NCBI GenBank assembly: GCA_013289795.1
Contig: JABCZH010000016.1
Span: 1 to 64,000, forward strand
DNA length: 64,000 bases
Reading direction: 5' to 3'
Source: Acidobacteriota bacterium
GTDB lineage: Bacteria; Acidobacteriota; Terriglobia; Terriglobales; Acidobacteriaceae
The notes below the pieces were generated by a model. It was not told the origin of the DNA and searched no databases. It saw nothing but the letters and a program-made list of their open reading frames with translations. How positions within the stretch are numbered: position 1 is the first letter of the stretch; every line of letters begins with the position of its first letter. Shown here piece by piece: positions 9,082 through 42,217 of this stretch. The position numbers were made by a program, and so were the translations under genes.

Positions 9082-10644
9082 CTACTGTTTGATGTTGACA
9101 AACTGCAAGCCGGTATCGCTAAGGAAATCGGCGTCGGCATTCTTGGTAAATACCGCGCCGCCTTCGTCACCACCGGATTCGGCGGGTTCGCCGGGGTTGC
9201 CGTTCGAAGCCGGAGCCAGCTCCTCGGGGCGGTCGAAGTGAGAACGGAACACCTGCATGGACTTTATCGGAACCAGATCAGGAACCTTGCTGGCATGCGT
9301 CTGCGCCGCCGCAACCAGCTTGGTGACTCCCGTCGGACAGGGGCTGTAGCACTGCACCCGCAGAATGGTCCACGCCGGATAGGATCCGTTCAGGATATTG
9401 ACGAACGGGACGAGACCGGGGCACGGGGCCACGCAATTGGGAAAGGCTCCCTTGCTCTGGTACCAGGAATAATTGAGAGGATCCACGCCATCCACTGACA
9501 GATATTTGGCAGTAGTGAGCACGTTGGCGAAGTTGCCGGTGCTCCAGAAAGCGTAGCCGATGCCATTCGCGGTCTTGCCCACGGTCGAAACCATCTCGCC
9601 CGTGCCGACCACGCGCTCACGTGAACCGCCGCTGGCGTAGGTGATGTTCAGCGGGTTTTCGGTAGCGGGGTTTACGTTAAGTTCCTGGCATGAACCCACC
9701 TCGACGCTGCCCGGAATGTCGAATTCGGTCGTATTGTAAGTTCCGGAAGTCGGCTCACGCAAGAAAACGTGCATTCCATTCGATGGCAGTCCCGCCACAT
9801 TGGCGATGTCACGAGTACGGGTGAGAGTGCCATTCAGGACGTCCGACAAAACAAAGCGATCCACGTTGGTGAAGCTTGCGCTTGCGAAATCGCTCCCCGT
9901 CTGGGTGTTCACGAAAACAACGATCGGGTACGCCCCCACGGCGAGTGAGGACCAGGCTGGAATCGGCGTTCCGTTAAACGGATCCGTTCCGCTGATCGCA
10001 AATGCTACCGGAGTGACCTGTTTGCTGCTTTGCGAACTCAGGATCGGCGCTCCGATAAGGCCGTTACCGGTGTATCCCAAGCCAGTGCAGTGAGGATCGT
10101 TGCTCCAGGGCGCCAGAGTGCGGTTCATGGCGAAAACCGCATCTTCCGCTCGGATGTCGGAAGGCGCGGCGTTGAACGGTTGATTATTGATGGCATTGTA
10201 CGCCGCCTGAGTCAGCGGGACATCGGTCAAGGTGGGGATCAAGTCGTTTCCGGCAGTCCCGATAGCGGTCGAAGGAATCGACAGTGTCGCGGTGGGTTGG
10301 GCGAAGAGCAGAAGGTTGCCAATCACCGAATCAACCGCAAGATATGAGCAGATGGTCGTAACCGCGCCTTGACTATTTGTGGCCCACACAATCCAGATGT
10401 TTGCGGTTTGTACTGGGATCTGGGTATTGCGGCTGTCAACGCCCGAGGCTCCGCTTTTCTGCGTCCAGATGTTGGTTCCGCACGATGTAGTTGAATATGC
10501 AGCCAGCGCGGCCAGATTGAACATGCCGGTGGAACCTGCACCGTTAAACTGCACCACCGGTGTGGCGGCAAAACTGTTTAGTCCTACAAACACGACCAGG
10601 GCGAGGGATAGCGCCGTCGTGATTTTTGTCGTCCGTTTAGTCAT
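9082..10644 (-). CDS. secreted PstS-like periplasmic binding protein
   Basis: I chose the ATG at 10644 (signal MTKRTTKITTALSLALVVF... to SFAAT) because AAGGA lies just upstream; the frame opens 15 codons earlier. The mature protein begins VVQFNGAGSTGMFNLA, closely resembling the GAGST phosphate-binding loop of PstS-type substrate-binding proteins. DNLIP-like and SGTYNTTEF segments also fit the two-lobed binding-protein fold. At 520 residues it is much longer than PstS (about 350), with a Ser/Asn-rich body and an acidic Gly/Glu tail. No ABC transporter genes are nearby, so it may be a free-standing extracellular binder. The ligand is not established. Confidence 0.6.
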   Translation of the reverse strand: MTKRTTKITTALSLALVVFVGLNSFAATPVVQFNGAGSTGMFNLAALAAYSTTSCGTNIWTQKSGASGVDSRNTQIPVQTANIWIVWATNSQGAVTTICSYLAVDSVIGNLLLFAQPTATLSIPSTAIGTAGNDLIPTLTDVPLTQAAYNAINNQPFNAAPSDIRAEDAVFAMNRTLAPWSNDPHCTGLGYTGNGLIGAPILSSQSSKQVTPVAFAISGTDPFNGTPIPAWSSLAVGAYPIVVFVNTQTGSDFASASFTNVDRFVLSDVLNGTLTRTRDIANVAGLPSNGMHVFLREPTSGTYNTTEFDIPGSVEVGSCQELNVNPATENPLNITYASGGSRERVVGTGEMVSTVGKTANGIGYAFWSTGNFANVLTTAKYLSVDGVDPLNYSWYQSKGAFPNCVAPCPGLVPFVNILNGSYPAWTILRVQCYSPCPTGVTKLVAAAQTHASKVPDLVPIKSMQVFRSHFDRPEELAPASNGNPGEPAESGGDEGGAVFTKNADADFLSDTGLQFVNIKQ

Positions 10645-10689
10645 TTCAGTTTTCCTTATGGCGCAAGTTTGCGCGGCTGTGGGGAGCAC

Positions 10690-11053
10690 CCCGTGGTCGA
10701 ACTGCGGCGCGCGGATGTTCTCCAGCCCGCACGCCAGGATTTTCTGAGGCGGCCCAGCTAAGTAAAAAACGACTCGAAACCCTGGCGCGAACCCGGGAAA
10801 ACAGCGGAAACAGCGGAAAATCTGCCAGCGCGAGTCCTGTGGACTATCGCCGATGTTTGTTGCAGCAAAACGACCGCGTGGTTAAAATCACGTGAATTTC
10901 TCCCAGTCGGCATGCTATGCAATGTGCTTTCGAAGTGCTCCAGACTTCACGCCCGCAGGCCTTTTGGCTGACGTTTCGGATCTCGTGAATTTTCGGTTTT
11001 AACCTGAAATTAACCCTCCCGTCATCATTTCGTCACATCTTCTCTGTAACTAT
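10690..11053. other. divergent intergenic region
   Basis: About 360 bases between the divergently transcribed PstS-like gene and the giant receptor gene. It must hold both promoters, but I see no consensus pair or strong palindrome that I would assign. It becomes AT-rich toward the receptor gene, with GGTTTTAACC at 10996-11005 and AATTAACC nearby. Confidence 0.35.
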
Positions 11054-11089
11054 GTGGCTCCTTTGACTCATAGGCGAAGGGTGAACCCT

Positions 11090-14000
11090 GTGCGATTGTT
11101 GACAGTCTTGCTCTGCTTGGCTGCCGTGTTGAGCTTGCCCGTGGCTGCTTCCGCTCAAACCAGCCCCAGCACGGCTCAGAAACCAGGTTCGATGTCGGGT
11201 ACGGTCACCGACCAAACCGGCGCCGTACTTCCCGGTTCGACCATCACAGTTCGTGACGCCACAGGCGTCACCCAAACTGTCACCACCAACGAGCGTGGAG
11301 AATACTCGTTTCCCCGCTTGCCGATCGGCACCTATAGCATCACCGTCTCCTCTGCCAAGTTCAAAGACTTCCACGCCGATGGCATCGCCCTGACGGCGGG
11401 ACAGTCCATCCCGATGGACGCCGTTCTTGAGCCTGCCGGCGAGACCACATCAGTCAACATCGAGGGGCAAAAGGTCTCCCAGGTCGAAACCGAAACCTCC
11501 CAGATCGTCGGAACCATCACTCAGAAAGAACTGGTAAGCCTGGGCCTGAATGGACGGAATTTTACCCAACTCATCACCTTGACTCCGGGTGTGAGTAACC
11601 AGACCGGACAGGACGAAGCCAAGGTGGGTGCGCTCGGCAGTGTGCGCTACAGCGTCAACGGCGGACGTGTCGAATACAACTCTTTCAATGTGGACGGCGG
11701 CGACGTGCTGAATGCCGGACTCAACGGCAGCCAAAGCACTCTCGTCGTCTATCCCAGTCTCGATGCTTTGAGCGAGGTGCAGGTCCTGACTTCGAATTAC
11801 GGCGCCCAGTACGGCCGTACCGCCTCCGGCACCGTCCTGGCTGAAACCAAATCCGGCACCGATCAACCGCACGGCAATGCCTACGAATTCATTCGCAACG
11901 AGTTCTTCAATGCCCGCAACTACTTTGATCTGACCACCAAGGCCCCACTCTACCGCAGAAATGATTTCGGTGCCACTCTGGGCGGACCAGTCTTAATTCC
12001 CTATATCTACGACGGCCGAGGCAAGACGTTCTTCTTCTTCTCGGAAGAGTTCCGCTTTGAACGCACTCCCACTCCTTACAACCAAGGCGTCCCTTCGGTC
12101 GCCGAGCGCAGCGGAAACTTCAGCGACGTGTGTCCGTTTGTCACTCCTGCCATCGGCGCCACCCCCGGTGGTCAGGCGAATTTCACCCGAGCCAAGTTTC
12201 CGGATTGCCCCGGCGTACCTGCTTCCGCCGCCGGTCAATTTCAAACTTACCCAGGAAACATTATCCCCATCGATCCCAACGCAGCCGCCATTCTGAGCAC
12301 CAACATTATTCCTTTCCCGAACGCAACCACCGGCTGCAATTCAAGTATCGGTTCCTGCTTCGATGCCGATGTTTCTCCCAGCACTTATTGGCGGGAGGAG
12401 CTATTCAAGATCGACCACAACATCACCCCCAAGATGAAAGCGAGCTTCCGCTACATCCATGATTCCTGGGACACGACCATCCTGACGCCGCAGTGGGGCA
12501 CCGTCCAGAATAATTTTCCGACGGTGCAGAGCCAGTTCACCGGGCCGGGAATCAGCATGGTGACCCATCTCACCAACACGATTTCGTCGAGCCTGCTGAA
12601 TGAAGTCATCGTCGGCTACACCACCGACCACATCACCCTCAAGAACATCGATTCTAATGGCGCCACCTTCCAGCGGCCCGCCGACCTGCACATGGGCTTT
12701 CTCTTTAATAACGGCTTCGGTAACAAGGTCCCCGGGATTGTCATCGGCGGCACCAATGCCGCTTACGGCGGGAACGGTTTCTCCGTCGATCCCGGATATC
12801 TTCCCTGGCACCATTCCAATCCGACTTACAACTTCCGTGACGACCTGAGCAAAGTGGTCGGCAAGCACACCCTGCAAATGGGGGTGCAATGGGTCATCGC
12901 CCAGCGCAATGAACTTAATCAAGCGGTGGGCGCGAATACCGGTGACGTCCAGGGCATCCTGGGTTTCAGCAACGTCAGCAGTTCTTTGAGCCTGGGCAAC
13001 TCCTTTGCCGATTTTCTGGTCGGCCCCGGCAGCTTCAGACCGAACGCGTCCGGAGGCATCAAGTACTTTCAGCAGGACAGCGCTCAGCATACGTACTTCA
13101 ACCGCTATAACGTGATCGAACCCTATTTTCAGGATGACTGGCGAGCAACGCCCCGCCTGACCCTCAACATGGGATTGCGTTTCAGCCTCTTCGGACTGTG
13201 GCACGAGAAATACAACAACGTATACAACTGGGTGCCTTCAGCCTTCAACAGTGCGCTGGCCGCTACCACCACCATCGACACCCTAACCGGCGGGCTGGCC
13301 GAAGCCGGAAGCTGCGACGCCAATGGGCAACACTGCACTCCGATCCCGCTGAATCTAAGCAATCTCGATCCCCGCATCACCAACGGCCTGGTGCGATGCG
13401 GCGCAAACGGAGTGCCCGACGGCTGCATGACCAACCACTTCGTCAATCCCGCGCCCCGTGTCGGATTCGCCTGGGACCCAACCGGCACTGGCAAAACTTC
13501 CATCCGTGGTGGCTACGGAATGTTCTTCCACCATGGGACAGGCAACGAAGCCAACACCGGCTCGCTCGAAGGCAGCGCGCCCATGGTGCTCGATATGACC
13601 GAGAACCGCCCCTACGACTACGGTTGCATCGGCGGCGTCGGAACCGTCCCCGGCACCACCGGTCAATGTCCGGGTGCCGGAGCCTATCCGCTCAACGTAA
13701 CCGCAATTCCAACCCGCGCGGTTTGGCCCTACGTCCAGCAGTGGAGTTTCAGCGTACAACGCCAGCTCTCATCGAGCACTGTCGCAACCGTCGCCTATGT
13801 CGGCAGCAAGGGCACCCATCTGACGACTGACTTACAAGTCAACCAACTGGCCCCCAATGCCGGCAATAACCCGTTCTTGCCGGGCCAGCCCATCACCATT
13901 CAAGACTGCAAGAGTTTCCAATCCACCACCGGATTCACTCTATTCGGGCCGCCGGATCCCCTCACCGGAGTCGCTCCCGTCACCGCAACCGTGGCTCCCA

Positions 14001-15010
14001 CCAATCCCGCCTTCGTCAACCTGGAAGCCGCCTGCTTCGGAACTCCCGGAATCACCGTCCCTGATCCCAATGCCCTGCGAACCTTTGCACCCGGCCTCGG
14101 TAGAATCTTTTCGTTGCAGAACGTCGCCACGTCGACTTACAACGCAATGCAGATGACCGTGCGCCGTTCGACCGGTCCATTTACTCTGGGCATCGCCTAT
14201 TCCTATAGCCATTCCATCGACGATTCTTCCGACCGGTCTGACACCACTCTGGTGAATGCTCTCGACATCGCAGCCAACAAAGCCAGTTCCAACTTCGATC
14301 AGCGCCACTTGCTTAACATCAGCTACCTTTACCGGCTTGACTCCGTAGTCTCCAGGTTGCGCTACTGGTTCTCCGACGTTGACTACGACGCCTCGCCATC
14401 CACCACTCCGCTTCCGGATGCCTCCCACGCTGGACACGTGCTGTTCGACGGCTGGGAGCTGTCCGGCATCACCACTTTCCAGTCAGGCACCCCCTTCAGC
14501 GTGATCAACGGCGCCAGTTCCAACGGCATCTCGGTCCTCGACAACGCGGGCGTCGCCAACGGCACCGGCGCAGGCTCTTACCCGGACGTGATCGGCAACC
14601 CCCATACCCGCGCCCCTTATGGAAGCACTAACCCGCTGAGTATCGGTCCGCAACTGCTGAACTCCGCCGCCTTCGCCGCGCCAACGGGACTCACCTTCGG
14701 AGACGCCGGCCGCAACTTCCTCAACAACCCCAGCCGTCTGAACTTCGATGTCGCCCTGTTGAAGCATTTCAAGATCACCGAAGGCAGCACTCTTGAATTC
14801 CGTGCCGAAGCCTTCAACGTCTTCAACCACAACCAATTCATCATCTACGACCCCGACCGCGGTAATCAGGCCAACAACACCGTGAACTGCTATGGAGGAA
14901 CTAACTTCTCCGCCGGCGATCCCAGTTGCCTGGCCGGGAGTGCGTTTCTGCATCCCATTGAAGCCCACCGCTCCCGCACCATGCAATTCGGATTGAAGTA
15001 CGCTTTCTGA
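11090..15010 (+). CDS. TonB-dependent-receptor-like outer-membrane protein with carboxypeptidase regulatory domain (Oar-like)
   Basis: A giant outer-membrane receptor of about 1306 residues. GTG at 11090 is preferred because GAAGG lies 9 bases before it and it opens the signal RLLTVLLCLAAVLSLPVAASAQ; GTG at 11054 or 11081 is possible. Residues 30-115 are a carboxypeptidase-regulatory-like domain (SGTVTDQTGAVLPGSTITV). A plug domain follows with LNGRNFTQLITLTPGV, VNGGRVEYNSFNVDGG and QYGRTASGTV. The rest is a 22-strand-type barrel ending MQFGLKYAF. This Oar/SusC-like family is hugely expanded in Acidobacteriota and is thought to import complex carbohydrate or other large ligands. No TonB box is identifiable, and no partner lipoprotein is adjacent. 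Confidence 0.85.
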   Translation: MRLLTVLLCLAAVLSLPVAASAQTSPSTAQKPGSMSGTVTDQTGAVLPGSTITVRDATGVTQTVTTNERGEYSFPRLPIGTYSITVSSAKFKDFHADGIALTAGQSIPMDAVLEPAGETTSVNIEGQKVSQVETETSQIVGTITQKELVSLGLNGRNFTQLITLTPGVSNQTGQDEAKVGALGSVRYSVNGGRVEYNSFNVDGGDVLNAGLNGSQSTLVVYPSLDALSEVQVLTSNYGAQYGRTASGTVLAETKSGTDQPHGNAYEFIRNEFFNARNYFDLTTKAPLYRRNDFGATLGGPVLIPYIYDGRGKTFFFFSEEFRFERTPTPYNQGVPSVAERSGNFSDVCPFVTPAIGATPGGQANFTRAKFPDCPGVPASAAGQFQTYPGNIIPIDPNAAAILSTNIIPFPNATTGCNSSIGSCFDADVSPSTYWREELFKIDHNITPKMKASFRYIHDSWDTTILTPQWGTVQNNFPTVQSQFTGPGISMVTHLTNTISSSLLNEVIVGYTTDHITLKNIDSNGATFQRPADLHMGFLFNNGFGNKVPGIVIGGTNAAYGGNGFSVDPGYLPWHHSNPTYNFRDDLSKVVGKHTLQMGVQWVIAQRNELNQAVGANTGDVQGILGFSNVSSSLSLGNSFADFLVGPGSFRPNASGGIKYFQQDSAQHTYFNRYNVIEPYFQDDWRATPRLTLNMGLRFSLFGLWHEKYNNVYNWVPSAFNSALAATTTIDTLTGGLAEAGSCDANGQHCTPIPLNLSNLDPRITNGLVRCGANGVPDGCMTNHFVNPAPRVGFAWDPTGTGKTSIRGGYGMFFHHGTGNEANTGSLEGSAPMVLDMTENRPYDYGCIGGVGTVPGTTGQCPGAGAYPLNVTAIPTRAVWPYVQQWSFSVQRQLSSSTVATVAYVGSKGTHLTTDLQVNQLAPNAGNNPFLPGQPITIQDCKSFQSTTGFTLFGPPDPLTGVAPVTATVAPTNPAFVNLEAACFGTPGITVPDPNALRTFAPGLGRIFSLQNVATSTYNAMQMTVRRSTGPFTLGIAYSYSHSIDDSSDRSDTTLVNALDIAANKASSNFDQRHLLNISYLYRLDSVVSRLRYWFSDVDYDASPSTTPLPDASHAGHVLFDGWELSGITTFQSGTPFSVINGASSNGISVLDNAGVANGTGAGSYPDVIGNPHTRAPYGSTNPLSIGPQLLNSAAFAAPTGLTFGDAGRNFLNNPSRLNFDVALLKHFKITEGSTLEFRAEAFNVFNHNQFIIYDPDRGNQANNTVNCYGGTNFSAGDPSCLAGSAFLHPIEAHRSRTMQFGLKYAF

Positions 15011-15054
15011 CCAATCCGTCTAGTGTGCGCATGATTTGCGGGTCGGAGTGAGAT

Positions 15055-15325
15055 TCAGCTTCTGGCGTGGGCGGAATTGACTCTTCGTTTGGTACTTGCA
15101 GGAGACAGTCTGGCGCTTCCCGCTGGCCGGGCACATACCGCGCAGTCGCAGCTTTCATTTGGAGTCGAACGCCAGACTGAGACGGCATCCAGACGGTAGC
15201 CCACGCCGCGGATGGTCTTGAGGTAGGTTGGCCGGGAGCGGTCGGGCTCAATCTTTTCCCGCACCCGGCGAATGCATGCGTCCACGCTGCGCGGAGTCAC
15301 GGATTGCATGTCGCCCCAGTCCGCG
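15055..15325 (-). pseudogene. duplicated 3' fragment of an OmpR-type response regulator gene
   Basis: This segment is about 90% identical to 21745-22015, the last third of the response regulator gene at 21744-22550. It covers the recognition helix (RSVDACIRRVREKIE), the wing (YLKTIRGVGYRLD) and the cysteine-containing tail. The match ends abruptly near 15325 after WGDMQ. Receiver and most of the DNA-binding domain are missing, and the apparent start at 15393 lies in unrelated sequence. It is a non-functional partial copy left by duplication or recombination, placed tail to tail with the giant receptor gene. Confidence 0.75.
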
Positions 15326-16391: not shown

Positions 16392-16766
16392 CTACGCGGC
16401 AGTGGCCTCCTCGGCCGCGCCGACGGAATCGAAAAAGCGAAAGAACTTCTCCACCTGGGTTATTTTGAGCGCGTTATGAATCCGGTCACTCACTCCCACC
16501 AGCGCCAGGCCCCGTCCACTGTTCTGGCGCGTGACGTAAGCTCCCACCAGCGCCCCGATCCCCGCCGAATCGACATAGGCAACGCCGCTGAAATCGATAA
16601 TCAGAGACCGCGATTGGTCGGCGCGCACGGTCGCCTGAAAATCAAAGAGCGTGGTTAGAACCAGCGCTCCAACAAGGCTCAGAATGCGTTGTCCCGGCTG
16701 CGCCCCGGGCCGATCGTCGATGCGCAGAGAGTCCTTGGGCATGGGTAAAGATACCACTCTCGGCAT
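16392..16766 (-). CDS. STAS-domain anti-sigma factor antagonist
   Basis: A 124-residue single-domain STAS protein. The hallmark SLIIDFSGVAYVDSAGIGAL includes Ser67, equivalent to the Ser phosphorylated in SpoIIAA/RsbV. Such proteins bind an anti-sigma kinase when unphosphorylated and so release a sigma factor. No partner kinase or sigma factor gene is adjacent. A second start at 16742 (MPKDSLRIDD) is possible. It is convergent with the DUF2780 gene and divergent from the permease gene. Confidence 0.78.
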   Translation of the reverse strand: MPRVVSLPMPKDSLRIDDRPGAQPGQRILSLVGALVLTTLFDFQATVRADQSRSLIIDFSGVAYVDSAGIGALVGAYVTRQNSGRGLALVGVSDRIHNALKITQVEKFFRFFDSVGAAEEATAA

Positions 16767-17051
16767 TCGTTACGGGATTGTTAAAGCAATGTCAATTTCC
16801 GCGTGATTGGCGGTGAGACGGCCCCCGACCCCAGCGGCTTGGTGCCCCATGTTCACTTCCGGACAGCAACGTCCGAGAGTGGACACAACACTGGTGCGGG
16901 TTCCCAACCAGAAAGCTGCTTCCGTGTTGGAAACCTTGCACTTAGCCAAGGTTTGACTCTGGCCGGGGGTTTGCACTCCAGCCCCTGAATCTGCATTCTC
17001 GTCAGGCGATTGTTGAGGATATTGTAGAGGAATGCTGTCGAGGACGAAGCC

Positions 17052-21743: not shown

Positions 21744-22550
21744 TCAACTTCTGGCGTGGGCGGAATTGACTCGTCGTTTGGCACTTGGGGGCGAAAGTCT
21801 GGCGCTTCCCGCCGGCCGGGCACATACCGCGCAGTCGCAGCTTTCATTTGGAGTCGAACGCCAGACCGGGACCACATCCAAACGATAGCCCACACCGCGG
21901 ATGGTCTTGAGGTAGGTTGGCCGGGAGCGGTCGAGCTCAATCTTTTCACGCACCCGGCGGATGCATGCGTCCACACTGCGCGGAGTCACGAATTGCATGT
22001 CGCCCCAGACCGCATCCAGCAACAGGTCGCGCGTGAACACCTGTCCGCGATGCTGGGCCAGATATTCGATCAGGCGAAACTCCAGACTGGTGGTTGGCAC
22101 TTCCGCGCCGCGGACGGACAGTCTCATTGCCGAGCTGTCAATCACAAAGTCCGATGTCGCGGTCCCAGGGAACGAAATCTCTGGCGAGAAGCGCCGCAGC
22201 ACGGCTTGCACCCGCGCCACCAGTTCCCGCGGACTGAATGGCTTCACGACGCAATCGTCGCCTCCCGACTCGAGCGCGAGAATGCGGTGCTCCTCGGTGG
22301 CGTCGTCGAGCAGAAAAAGCAGGGGTGTGCGCGCCAGGAATGGATTTTCGCGAATGCGGCGGCAAAGACTGATTCCACTTCCGTCGGGCAGAAGCAGTGA
22401 AATCAGCATCAGCGCGGGCCGGTCGATTTCCGCCTCGGCAATCATTTCACTGGTCGAAAAGGTGCGTACTTCGTATCCAGCGGTCTCTAAGCAGTCCCTT
22501 GCCGTCTCGCAACCCTCGACTTCGTCAACCACAAAGATGAGTTGTCTCAT
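21744..22550 (-). CDS. atypical OmpR/PhoB-family response regulator
   Basis: A 268-residue regulator. Residues 1-120 are a receiver: acidic pair Asp9-Glu10 and Lys103 (VVKPFSPREL) are kept, but the phospho-acceptor position is Ser51 (PALMLISLLLPDGSG) and the usual Thr/Ser of the switch is replaced in LLDDATEE. Residues about 135-228 are a winged-helix domain (RSVDACIRRVREKIE, TIRGVGYRLD). A 40-residue tail follows with CDCAVC, a CxCxxC cluster. Canonical phosphorylation therefore looks impossible; the tail might bind metal or sense redox (inference). No histidine kinase is adjacent. A partial duplicate lies at 15055-15325. Confidence 0.82.
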   Translation of the reverse strand: MRQLIFVVDEVEGCETARDCLETAGYEVRTFSTSEMIAEAEIDRPALMLISLLLPDGSGISLCRRIRENPFLARTPLLFLLDDATEEHRILALESGGDDCVVKPFSPRELVARVQAVLRRFSPEISFPGTATSDFVIDSSAMRLSVRGAEVPTTSLEFRLIEYLAQHRGQVFTRDLLLDAVWGDMQFVTPRSVDACIRRVREKIELDRSRPTYLKTIRGVGYRLDVVPVWRSTPNESCDCAVCARPAGSARLSPPSAKRRVNSAHARS

Positions 22551-22796
22551 ACCGTCCGCAAGCCGCTCTGCTCCCAGCGATCGAAGACACCAAGACCCCC
22601 GGCGTCCCCTGAAGTTAGTCGGTGCGGCAGTCTAGCCCGGCACGTGTTACGGCGGTGTGACGGCAGGATGAATCCTGTGTAAATTTCAAGAAGAAGCCAC
22701 TGAAAAAGACCGGGTTGCGGTGATTAAGGGCTGGGTGATGAAGAAACAGATTCCTCGCCGCTAAGCGATTCGGAATGAGCAGGAAGTTGGGAAGTC

Positions 22797-23204
22797 CTAG
22801 TTCTTCTTTTCCGCAACTTCCAGCCGGGTTTCGGCGCGCTGCAAGTCTGCTGTTACGCGCTCGAAGTCTTCTTCCGTGGCTGAACTCGCAAGATTCGCCT
22901 CGGCGCGCTGCTTGGACGCCTGCGCACGCGTGATGTCAATTTCGGCAGCCCGCTCGGCGGTTTCGGCCAGGATCGTGACTCTGTCAGGCAATACCTCGGC
23001 GAATCCCCAAGCCACCGCGAGGCGGGTCGTAGTATTTCCGTTGCGATACGTGATTTCTCCCACGGCCAGTTCCGAGATCAACGGGGCATGACCGGGAAGA
23101 ATTCCCAGGTACCCGTTCTTGCCAGGAATCTGGATCTCTTCCGCGACGTCGCGCACCACCAGCTTTTCTGGGGTCACGATCTCGAGTTGGAATGTGTCGG
23201 GCAT
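22797..23204 (-). CDS. atpC: ATP synthase F1 epsilon subunit
   Basis: A 135-residue subunit of the central stalk that inhibits ATP hydrolysis. The N-terminal beta-sandwich (FQLEIVTPEKLVV, GYLGILPGHAPLISEL) and the two C-terminal helices (ERAAEIDITRAQASKQRAEANLA, FERVTADLQRAETRLE) are complete. It is the last gene of the minus-strand atp operon, 93 bases after atpD. Confidence 0.95.
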   Translation of the reverse strand: MPDTFQLEIVTPEKLVVRDVAEEIQIPGKNGYLGILPGHAPLISELAVGEITYRNGNTTTRLAVAWGFAEVLPDRVTILAETAERAAEIDITRAQASKQRAEANLASSATEEDFERVTADLQRAETRLEVAEKKN

Positions 23205-41725: not shown

Positions 41726-42217
41726 CTATTTACGGCGTATATTCTGGGTCAGAATAAGCCGAAACTCCTCCAACTGCGCTCCGGCGAAAGCACGTTTCGG
41801 GATGACTTGGAACTGTCGAGGCTTCAAGTAGAGTACAAAGAGATTTGGGGTTTCGCGAAATCTCGTGAAACCACTCCATTTTGTCTCGCCTTGTCCCAGA
41901 TCGTTCTGATCAATCACTCCGCTTTCCTCAACACGTAACACCCGTGGCTTGACAAAGTCTGGATGCTTGCGAAACCACCTTCGGATCAATACGGGTCGTG
42001 TAAACCAGAATGCAAGCACAACAGCCATCCACAAGACGAAAATAATCACGGCAGCCGCCGCTTGCTTAAGACCCAAGGTCGTCAGAAAGAAAATTGCGAA
42101 TAGAATAAACACACCGGCCAGAACCGAGGTTAGCATCTTCCGCCCCAAGGGCTTCGCCTCAGGCGTACCGAGGGCTTCCGTGTAGTCGCTTAAGTCGCAC
42201 TGGTATCGGACCTCCAT
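41726..42217 (-). CDS. YcxB-like membrane protein
   Basis: A 163-residue protein with two membrane helices (MLTSVLAGVFILFAIFFLTT, AAAVIIFVLWMAVVLAFWF) and a soluble C-terminal domain: VLRVEESGVIDQN, WSGFTRFRETPNLFVLYL, FQVIPKRAFAG then LEEFRLILTQNI. This is the YcxB-like C-terminal pattern. Function unknown. It is convergent with vapC, 15 bases away. Confidence 0.7.
   Translation of the reverse strand: MEVRYQCDLSDYTEALGTPEAKPLGRKMLTSVLAGVFILFAIFFLTTLGLKQAAAAVIIFVLWMAVVLAFWFTRPVLIRRWFRKHPDFVKPRVLRVEESGVIDQNDLGQGETKWSGFTRFRETPNLFVLYLKPRQFQVIPKRAFAGAQLEEFRLILTQNIRRK

Follow-up and report, generated by a model that had tools for sequence, protein, structure and literature searches.

The 64-kb window, by which we mean the whole stretch of DNA that was analysed (64,000 nucleotides), comes from a soil acidobacterium and carries a response regulator gene on its minus strand, with atpC lying 246 bp upstream on the same strand. 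The gene and the parts of its product are as follows.

21744..22550, minus strand: orphan Asp-less PhoB-type response regulator (268-aa ORF; Pfam domains; clade and tree)
22191..22550, minus strand: degenerate receiver, residues 1-120 (Response_reg, 4e-14)
22398..22400, minus strand: Ser51 codon at the phospho-Asp position (alignment with relatives)
21876..22148, minus strand: winged-helix DNA-binding domain, residues 135-225 (Trans_reg_C, 1.7e-24), with the clade-specific Cys196
21747..21875, minus strand: C-terminal tail, residues 226-268, with W230 and C238-x-C240-x-x-C243 (Trp and three Cys invariant, n=5)

Both Pfam domains, Response_reg and Trans_reg_C, pass the cut-off. Their pairing places the protein among the OmpR/PhoB response regulators, and its full-length PDB matches are also of OmpR/PhoB type. 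The key residues are D9, E10, Ser51, Leu81, Cys100 and Lys103. The protein was aligned with a canonical set of 52 distinct sequences (E 1e-50 or better among the fetched loci, excluding the clade described below), all of which have Asp at position 51, Thr at position 81 and Tyr at position 100. The Ser at the phospho-Asp position and the loss of the switch Thr, both proposed by an earlier sequence-only reading, were borne out by this alignment. That reading had also taken Asp9, Glu10 and Lys103 to be retained. The residues do read so, but the acidic-pair region is one residue shorter than in the relatives (VVD-EVEG compared to VVEDEIEV), so the phosphorylation pocket is altered too.

Relatives sharing these features were sought at several levels. 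A scan for short exact peptides in one genome per species (84,980 species) returned 16 loci, two of which (L001 and L002) belong to the same clade as the window protein. Genome searches covered 61 genomes of relatives, 300 + 398 of the family and 399 of the class, in draws that overlap. The class search used a threshold of E 1e-90, and the phylum search one of 1e-92, which is too strict for G330 (1.7e-91) and G092 (3.2e-91; genomes are given here as G numbers). Inspection of the best 30 loci of each relatives and family search revealed at least seven clade members, in the window's genome, G061, G100, G094, G330, G133 and G092; the G061 member lies on the same contig as L001 and the G133 member on the same contig as L002. 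The distribution is patchy, with at least seven members among 398 family genomes and, in genus g7, a member in 1/45 genomes at E 1e-89.

In the order given above, residue 51 is S, T, S, A, G, N and A. The seven are thus aspartate-less receivers (ALRs), in contrast to the 52 canonical proteins, and the acidic pair and the Lys are also absent from some of them. These losses support the earlier statement that normal phosphorelay is not possible. In a tree with the 52 canonical and four outgroup rows, the seven orphans are monophyletic (100/99). Within the clade G133 branches first and then G092, and the five members with a Cys tail form a nested clade (100/96). The program warned of long branches for G330, G092, G133 and G094, and the branches that place the clade inside the canonical rows are weak (94/84, 88/49, 86/78). 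Since the two members that branch first lack the tail Cys, the tree suggests that the Asp was lost before the tail appeared and that the tail was gained once. The search for homologues with both Asp loss and a Cys tail, proposed in the sequence-only reading, found them in four other genera. The same reading had named homologues with a canonical Asp and no conserved Cys tail as a sign of a one-off mutation. Such homologues exist as more distant canonical paralogues, namely the 52 canonical sequences and 16 further PhoB-like copies from 15 genomes (Asp51 in 16/16, Cys tail in none). Inside the clade that objection fails, and a one-off mutation of Asp51 is ruled out by the seven-member clade and by the features shared with the four other genera.

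The orphans are most closely related to PhoB-like regulators that have the Asp and are linked to a kinase. In the window's genome the closest paralogue (50% identity, G000:C11:69724-70401) stands first in a regulator-kinase-PhoU operon, with a HAMP-PAS histidine kinase gene and then a PhoU gene after it. An Asp51 copy is also kept in all five other orphan-bearing genomes examined (G061, G092, G094, G100 and G133). The PhoB model TIGR02154 is the nearest curated model for both the orphan and its canonical paralogue, at scores below the cut-off of 296.2 (177.3 and 249.2, respectively); the phosphorylatable Asp that a PhoB-type two-component system requires is absent from all seven orphans. A HisKA-like motif was found within 1.5 kb downstream in 46/52 canonical loci, one of the other six having a flank of 777 bp. 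No match to this motif was found in the 64-kb window or in the DNA flanking the six other orphans, where flanks can be short (334 bp upstream in G061, 552 bp downstream in G100) and where the motif, being narrow, overlooked a KdpD-like kinase that lies 0.7 kb from the G133 gene and is encoded on the other strand. That no kinase gene was found directly behind any orphan, the G100 downstream flank being 552 bp, further backs the claim about phosphorelay. In G092 a TPR protein gene lies ~29 bp from the orphan, apparently in one operon with it (L106 5741-7331), and the ORF downstream of the G100 orphan is the beginning of a PF04185 phosphoesterase gene (E 2.1e-9, L103 2-373(-)).

To what extent the orphan is still constrained was examined domain by domain. 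Mean pairwise identity of the receiver is 43% in the clade compared to 69% among canonical relatives, and that of the DNA-binding domain is 74% (77% for residues 135-225) compared to 78%. Mean pairwise pN/pS is higher in the receiver (0.52) than in the DNA-binding domain (0.22). The receiver is itself uneven: identity in the clade is 36% for residues 1-85 and 60% for residues 86-120, and 8 of the 14 invariant receiver columns fall within 86-120 (hypergeometric p 0.019). Residues 86-120 span alpha4-beta5-alpha5, the usual dimer face of the family. Judged by conservation, the DNA-binding domain and the dimer face appear to be maintained, while the rest of the receiver decays. Asp-less receiver proteins are described as largely keeping the dimeric interface (PMC4395418).

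The window also holds part of a second copy of the gene.

15054..15324, minus strand: truncated copy of the regulator gene's 3' third (271 nt, 92% identity; synteny with G061)

This partial copy had not been noted previously, nor had the promoter array at 22640-22683(-) described below. It lies directly after an Oar-like gene. In G061 this is where the intact regulator sits, separated from the Oar-like gene by one 496-aa ORF, so the intact gene of the window seems to be the copy that moved. An ORF fragment follows the 15054-15324 copy, which suggests a deletion junction. Copy and intact gene differ at 21 sites in 270 nt, with dN/dS 0.15 (bootstrap 0.05-0.36). A gene that is turning into a pseudogene as its receiver erodes would account for the 271-nt fragment, for the high receiver pN/pS (0.28-0.57 against the window protein) and for the finding of members in only seven, a lower bound, of 398 family genomes. 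We regard such decay as very unlikely, since the DNA-binding domain is nearly as conserved in the clade (74%) as among canonical relatives (78%), five members share the tail Trp and three Cys without exception, the promoter array is likewise conserved, and the low dN/dS indicates that the divergence between the copies mostly arose under constraint.

Ten columns are specific to the clade, including 20, 195 and 196. Residue 20 is Cys in 7/7 clade members and H, N, Q or T in canonical proteins. In the recognition helix, residue 195 is Ala in 6/7 and Thr in 1/7 compared to Val in 52/52 canonical relatives, and residue 196 is Cys in 7/7 compared to Tyr in 52/52. By alignment with E. coli PhoB, its residues T194, V197, R201 and R219 presumably correspond to S192, A195, R199 and R218 here. 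The canonical relatives have Ser, Val, Arg and Arg at these four places; the window protein departs from them at one (A195) and also at the neighbouring C196. In PhoB these four residues are reported to make base-specific contacts (PMC3264566).

The tail had been read as a 40-residue extension ending in a CDCAVC cluster. Three Cys do lie in a C-terminal extension, which is 43 residues long (226-268), but the cluster (238-243) is in mid-tail, with 25 residues after it. CxCxxC stands exactly 12 residues after GYRLD in the window protein, G061, G100, G094 and G330, and in these five W230, C238, C240 and C243 are the sole invariants of 27 columns. Synonymous divergence among them is at or near saturation in most comparisons, which puts this invariance beyond chance. 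Control through the tail, by metal or by redox, is plausible in view of the strong conservation of the three Cys. Taken further, Cys chemistry could have replaced phosphorylation outright, in principle as in RitR or HP1021, leaving any link to phosphate secondary. The W-x7-C-x-C-x-x-C motif, invariant in 5/5 Cys-tail members, and C20 and C196, present in 7/7 where canonical proteins have H/N/Q/T and Y, point in that direction, as do the two precedents. We nevertheless judge this somewhat unlikely. The tail Cys are absent from G133 and G092, the two earliest branches. The Cys conserved in the five Cys-tail members (20, 196, 238, 240 and 243) are unlike those of both precedents in position, lying neither in the linker nor in the alpha1-beta2 loop. 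The AlphaFold model of the tail is also of low confidence (mean pLDDT 60 for residues 231-240, then 48, 38 and 40 in the last three blocks), in a model whose pTM of 0.54 leaves the domain arrangement unsure. Phosphorylation of Ser51 by a Ser/Thr kinase is a further conceivable input, given that the window protein and G100 have Ser and G061 has Thr; the other four clade members have Ala, Gly, Asn and Ala, so residue 51 is not conserved, and we rejected it as a phosphorylation site, its use being barely credible.

Upstream of the gene the promoter region contains two further features.

22640..22683, minus strand: four 7-bp half-sites with an 11-bp period, a Pho-box-like candidate operator (R2, E 6.7e-8 in the window)
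22629..22634, minus strand: -10-like hexamer TAGACT, 9 bp after the last half-site (AT-rich hexamer likewise in G061, G100, G094 and G330)

The half-sites TTTACAC, TTCATCC, GTCACAC and GTAACAC are separated by AGGA, TGCC and CGCC and followed, after 9 bp, by TAGACT. The same half-site layout and 9-bp gap precede the hexamers TAAACT in G061, TAAACT in G100, TAGATA in G094 and TACAAT in G330. Best matches to the window array, out of 55, were 39 (G061), 36 (G100), 31 (G094), 29 (G330), 26 (G133) and 23 (G092), and were equalled or bettered by 0, 0, 1, 5, 148 and 1652 of 2000 shuffles, respectively. In the first five orphan promoters the half-sites are better matched than the spacers (24/28 compared to 10/21 in G061; 18 compared to 7 in G330). 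As a control, 52 canonical upstream regions gave best scores of 32, 30, 28 and 28 out of 55 and a median of 24, two of them reaching the G330 score of 29 or more; a looser 17-bp form of the site, with at most four mismatches, occurs in 8/52. In G092 the array lies farther upstream, before the TPR gene, where it is found at E 7.6e-8 in the genome by R1, a model built from the five Cys-tail orphan promoters and hence without G092. In G133 two half-sites face the orphan and a separate array faces a divergent gene.

PhoB is reported to bind direct repeats, the pho boxes (PMC10294691), at sites that overlap the -35 region (PMC3348028), and for M. tuberculosis PhoP a spacing of 7+4 bp is reported (PMC4832192). 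A scan for the sigma-70 consensus found none upstream of the gene (22551-22850), the sole promoter match lying downstream (21687-21658). This would fit a promoter whose -35 region has been replaced. By its sequence the orphan promoter contains a predicted operator of the Pho-box-like kind that marks membership of the Pho regulon. For the function of the orphan this promoter is stronger evidence than the tail.

To see what else such arrays precede, we applied R1 to 250 family genomes. With stricter filters and E 0.05, 29 genomes matched, six of them orphan-bearing and 23 in which no orphan was found; in most of the 23 only some PhoB-like copies were read, those of G011, G015 and G082 having Asp51. 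The best array of each of the 23 genomes was assigned to its neighbouring gene. PstS lies behind it in three (G015, G234 and G119), and at least three PstS in 22 has p 1.5e-6 if 0.1% of genes are PstS, an assumed rate, with 22 genomes used where the actual number is 23. A metallophosphoesterase is directly behind the array in G066 and, named by eye, beside it in the opposite direction in G011 and G135; a PF04185 phosphoesterase follows in G105. Relatives of a 535-aa protein of the window follow in five (G166, G146, G270, G088 and G188) and TonB/CarboxypepD_reg (Oar-type) genes in two (G193 and G174). The other 9/23 comprise a malic enzyme (G021), an Ig-like protein (G150), four proteins with no Pfam match (G260, G080, G129 and G251) and three array matches with no assigned gene (G178, G082 and G076). 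By eye the G080 protein is phosphoesterase-like, and the G178 array is ~0.3 kb from an ORF, also named by eye, that resembles polyphosphate kinase and runs in the opposite direction (L180).

A second model, R2, was built from 14 arrays of the 23 genomes; its sites were first picked with R1, itself derived from the orphan promoters, and so the two models are not independent. In the 64-kb window R2 ranks the orphan promoter first (22642-22686(-), E 6.7e-8), followed by a divergent pair, 10999-11039(+) at 1.7e-4 and 10856-10899(-) at 1.9e-4, and by lower matches at 41914-41943(+) (1.2) and 16768-16798(-) (0.007). The last of these, which covers model positions 2-32 or about three half-sites, stands right before a STAS-domain gene (16392-16766). 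The divergent pair belongs to the following features.

11000..11041, plus strand: Pho-box-like array before an Oar/TonB-receptor-type gene (R1, E 0.003 in 20 kb; R2, 1.7e-4)
11054..15010, plus strand: Oar-like outer-membrane beta-barrel protein (OMP_b-brl_4, CarboxypepD_reg), a likely regulon member
10856..10899, minus strand: Pho-box-like array before the gene of a 535-aa protein (R1, E 0.011 in 20 kb; R2, 1.9e-4)
9082..10689, minus strand: 535-aa secreted-type protein, divergent from the Oar-like gene, a likely regulon member

Across the full genome from which the window comes, R1 has four matches up to E 10, namely the orphan promoter at 2.7e-13, C7:104925 at 0.02, the Oar array at 0.71 and C7:123404 at 4.3. 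The two on C7 are array-like sites at G000:C7:104925-104973 (L130) and G000:C7:123404-123432 (L132), the latter preceding another Oar-like gene. The same divergent Oar/535-aa pair, with arrays on both sides, is present in G100 and G092, the Oar relative behind the G100 array being 78% identical. Divergent pairs of a secreted protein and an Oar-type protein recur beside arrays in several family genomes. The 535-aa protein (9082-10689(-)) has no Pfam family. PstS-like motifs seen by eye made it a candidate PstS homologue, which the searches did not support: hhalign against PstS gave a probability of 1.4, Pfam PBP_like_2 was found in 1/5 members at E 0.0024, under the cut-off, and a PDB profile search gave nothing below E 0.72. 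In control DNA, 95 kb of loci from other bacteria, the best R2 match was E 0.37. Among 24 canonical operon loci (89 kb) R2 found none below E 0.05, the best (0.077) being the window genome's own canonical operon, and R1 gave two matches in 44 canonical loci (0.003 and 0.006; L068 and L071). With canonical operons mostly lacking arrays, the parent regulator is not clearly autoregulated by an array of this type.

Together, these results suggest that the orphan is probably a phosphorylation-independent, PhoB-derived regulator that acts as a second tier inside the phosphate regulon. A kinase-linked PhoB-like gene would have been duplicated and one copy would have lost its kinase and its phospho-Asp, keeping the DNA-binding domain and the dimer part of the receiver (alpha4-beta5-alpha5). 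Two neighbouring residues of the recognition helix would have changed, V to A and Y to C, and in the promoter the -35 region would have given way to four tandem 7-bp half-sites, a layout bound by PhoB-type activators. Arrays of this kind precede phosphate genes even where no orphan was found in the genome, and on that basis phosphorylated canonical PhoB would be expected to activate the orphan gene. Phosphate starvation may in this way, perhaps with the orphan itself contributing, raise the amount of the orphan regulator, which would need no phosphorylation and would act on these arrays or on an overlapping set, among them the ones before the nearby Oar-like and 535-aa genes. As a second tier it could extend, tune or compete with PhoB. 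The Cys3 tail, which arose a single time within a sub-clade, probably adjusts the orphan's activity by metal binding or redox. We infer which protein binds the arrays, the induction by phosphate, the sign of action and the role of the Cys tail.

The sign of action bears on a narrower reading, in which the orphan made during starvation is a brake, occupying arrays in competition with phosphorylated PhoB but not activating transcription. A DNA-binding domain and dimer face kept after loss of the phospho-input, and one type of array in both its own promoter and its likely targets, would suit such a role. PhoB, however, is itself described as a dual regulator, depending on site position (PMC10294691), and we consider the brake unlikely. 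A bolder version of the second-tier reading, to which we give slightly more credence but which we still think rather unlikely, is that the duplicated PhoB gave up phosphorylation, gained in its place a metal or redox site at the C-terminus (W-x7-C-x-C-x-x-C) and became a PhoB-induced integrator.

The orphan resembles the PhoB/PhoR system (TIGR02154) in domain order, best curated model, the frame of the recognition helix and a tandem-repeat operator overlapping the -35. It differs in lacking the phospho-Asp and the switch Thr, in that no neighbouring kinase was found in the flanks, in having Ala and Cys at the places of PhoB V197 and H198, in its 43-residue Cys tail and in scoring below the cut-off. 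With ChxR, HP1043 and GlnR, which have Asp-less or pseudo-receivers, it shares an atypical OmpR/PhoB type, the DNA-binding domain and, by conservation, the dimer face (for ChxR, see PMC3960148). Unlike these, the orphans are an acidobacterial lineage of their own that arose from a PhoB-like gene still represented by its canonical form, and 5/7 have the Cys3 tail. RitR of Streptococcus pneumoniae is likewise an Asp-less relative of two-component regulators in which Cys may supply the input, and it is a precedent for Cys-based redox (PMC5965902). It has a single linker Cys, compared to the three Cys after the winged helix, putatively sensing, in the orphan. The redox switches HP1021 and Cj1608 are also orphan atypical regulators with functional Cys, a role that is putative here. 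Their Cys lie in the receiver alpha1-beta2 loop, unlike the modelled Cys20 in alpha1 and the C-terminal cluster of our protein.

Asp-less receivers make up ~4% of receivers, and Acidobacteria belong to the phyla in which a genome has most of them (PMC12632262, PMC4395418). The direct mechanisms given for them comprise covalent modification, ligand binding and multimer state, the last of which includes Cys disulfides as in RitR and HP1021 (PMC12632262); the words zinc and cysteine are absent from the main text of that 2025 review. A literature search for a response regulator with CxCxxC returned no matching regulator, what turned up concerning plant proteins, and searches for Asp-less Acidobacteria regulators and for an orphan PhoB paralogue gave none that matched among the matches listed.

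If the integrator reading is true, phosphate scavenging, and notably the outer-membrane/secreted pair, would depend not on phosphate alone but also on the metal or redox state. The arrays also provide a Pho-box model for one family of Acidobacteria, a subject on which there was nothing among the literature matches listed. A single bacterial family shows the canonical form, its decayed paralogues (some with the Cys tail, others lacking it) and the DNA operators. It is therefore possible to place on the tree both the loss of phosphorylation and the possible gain of a new input, and to test them part by part.
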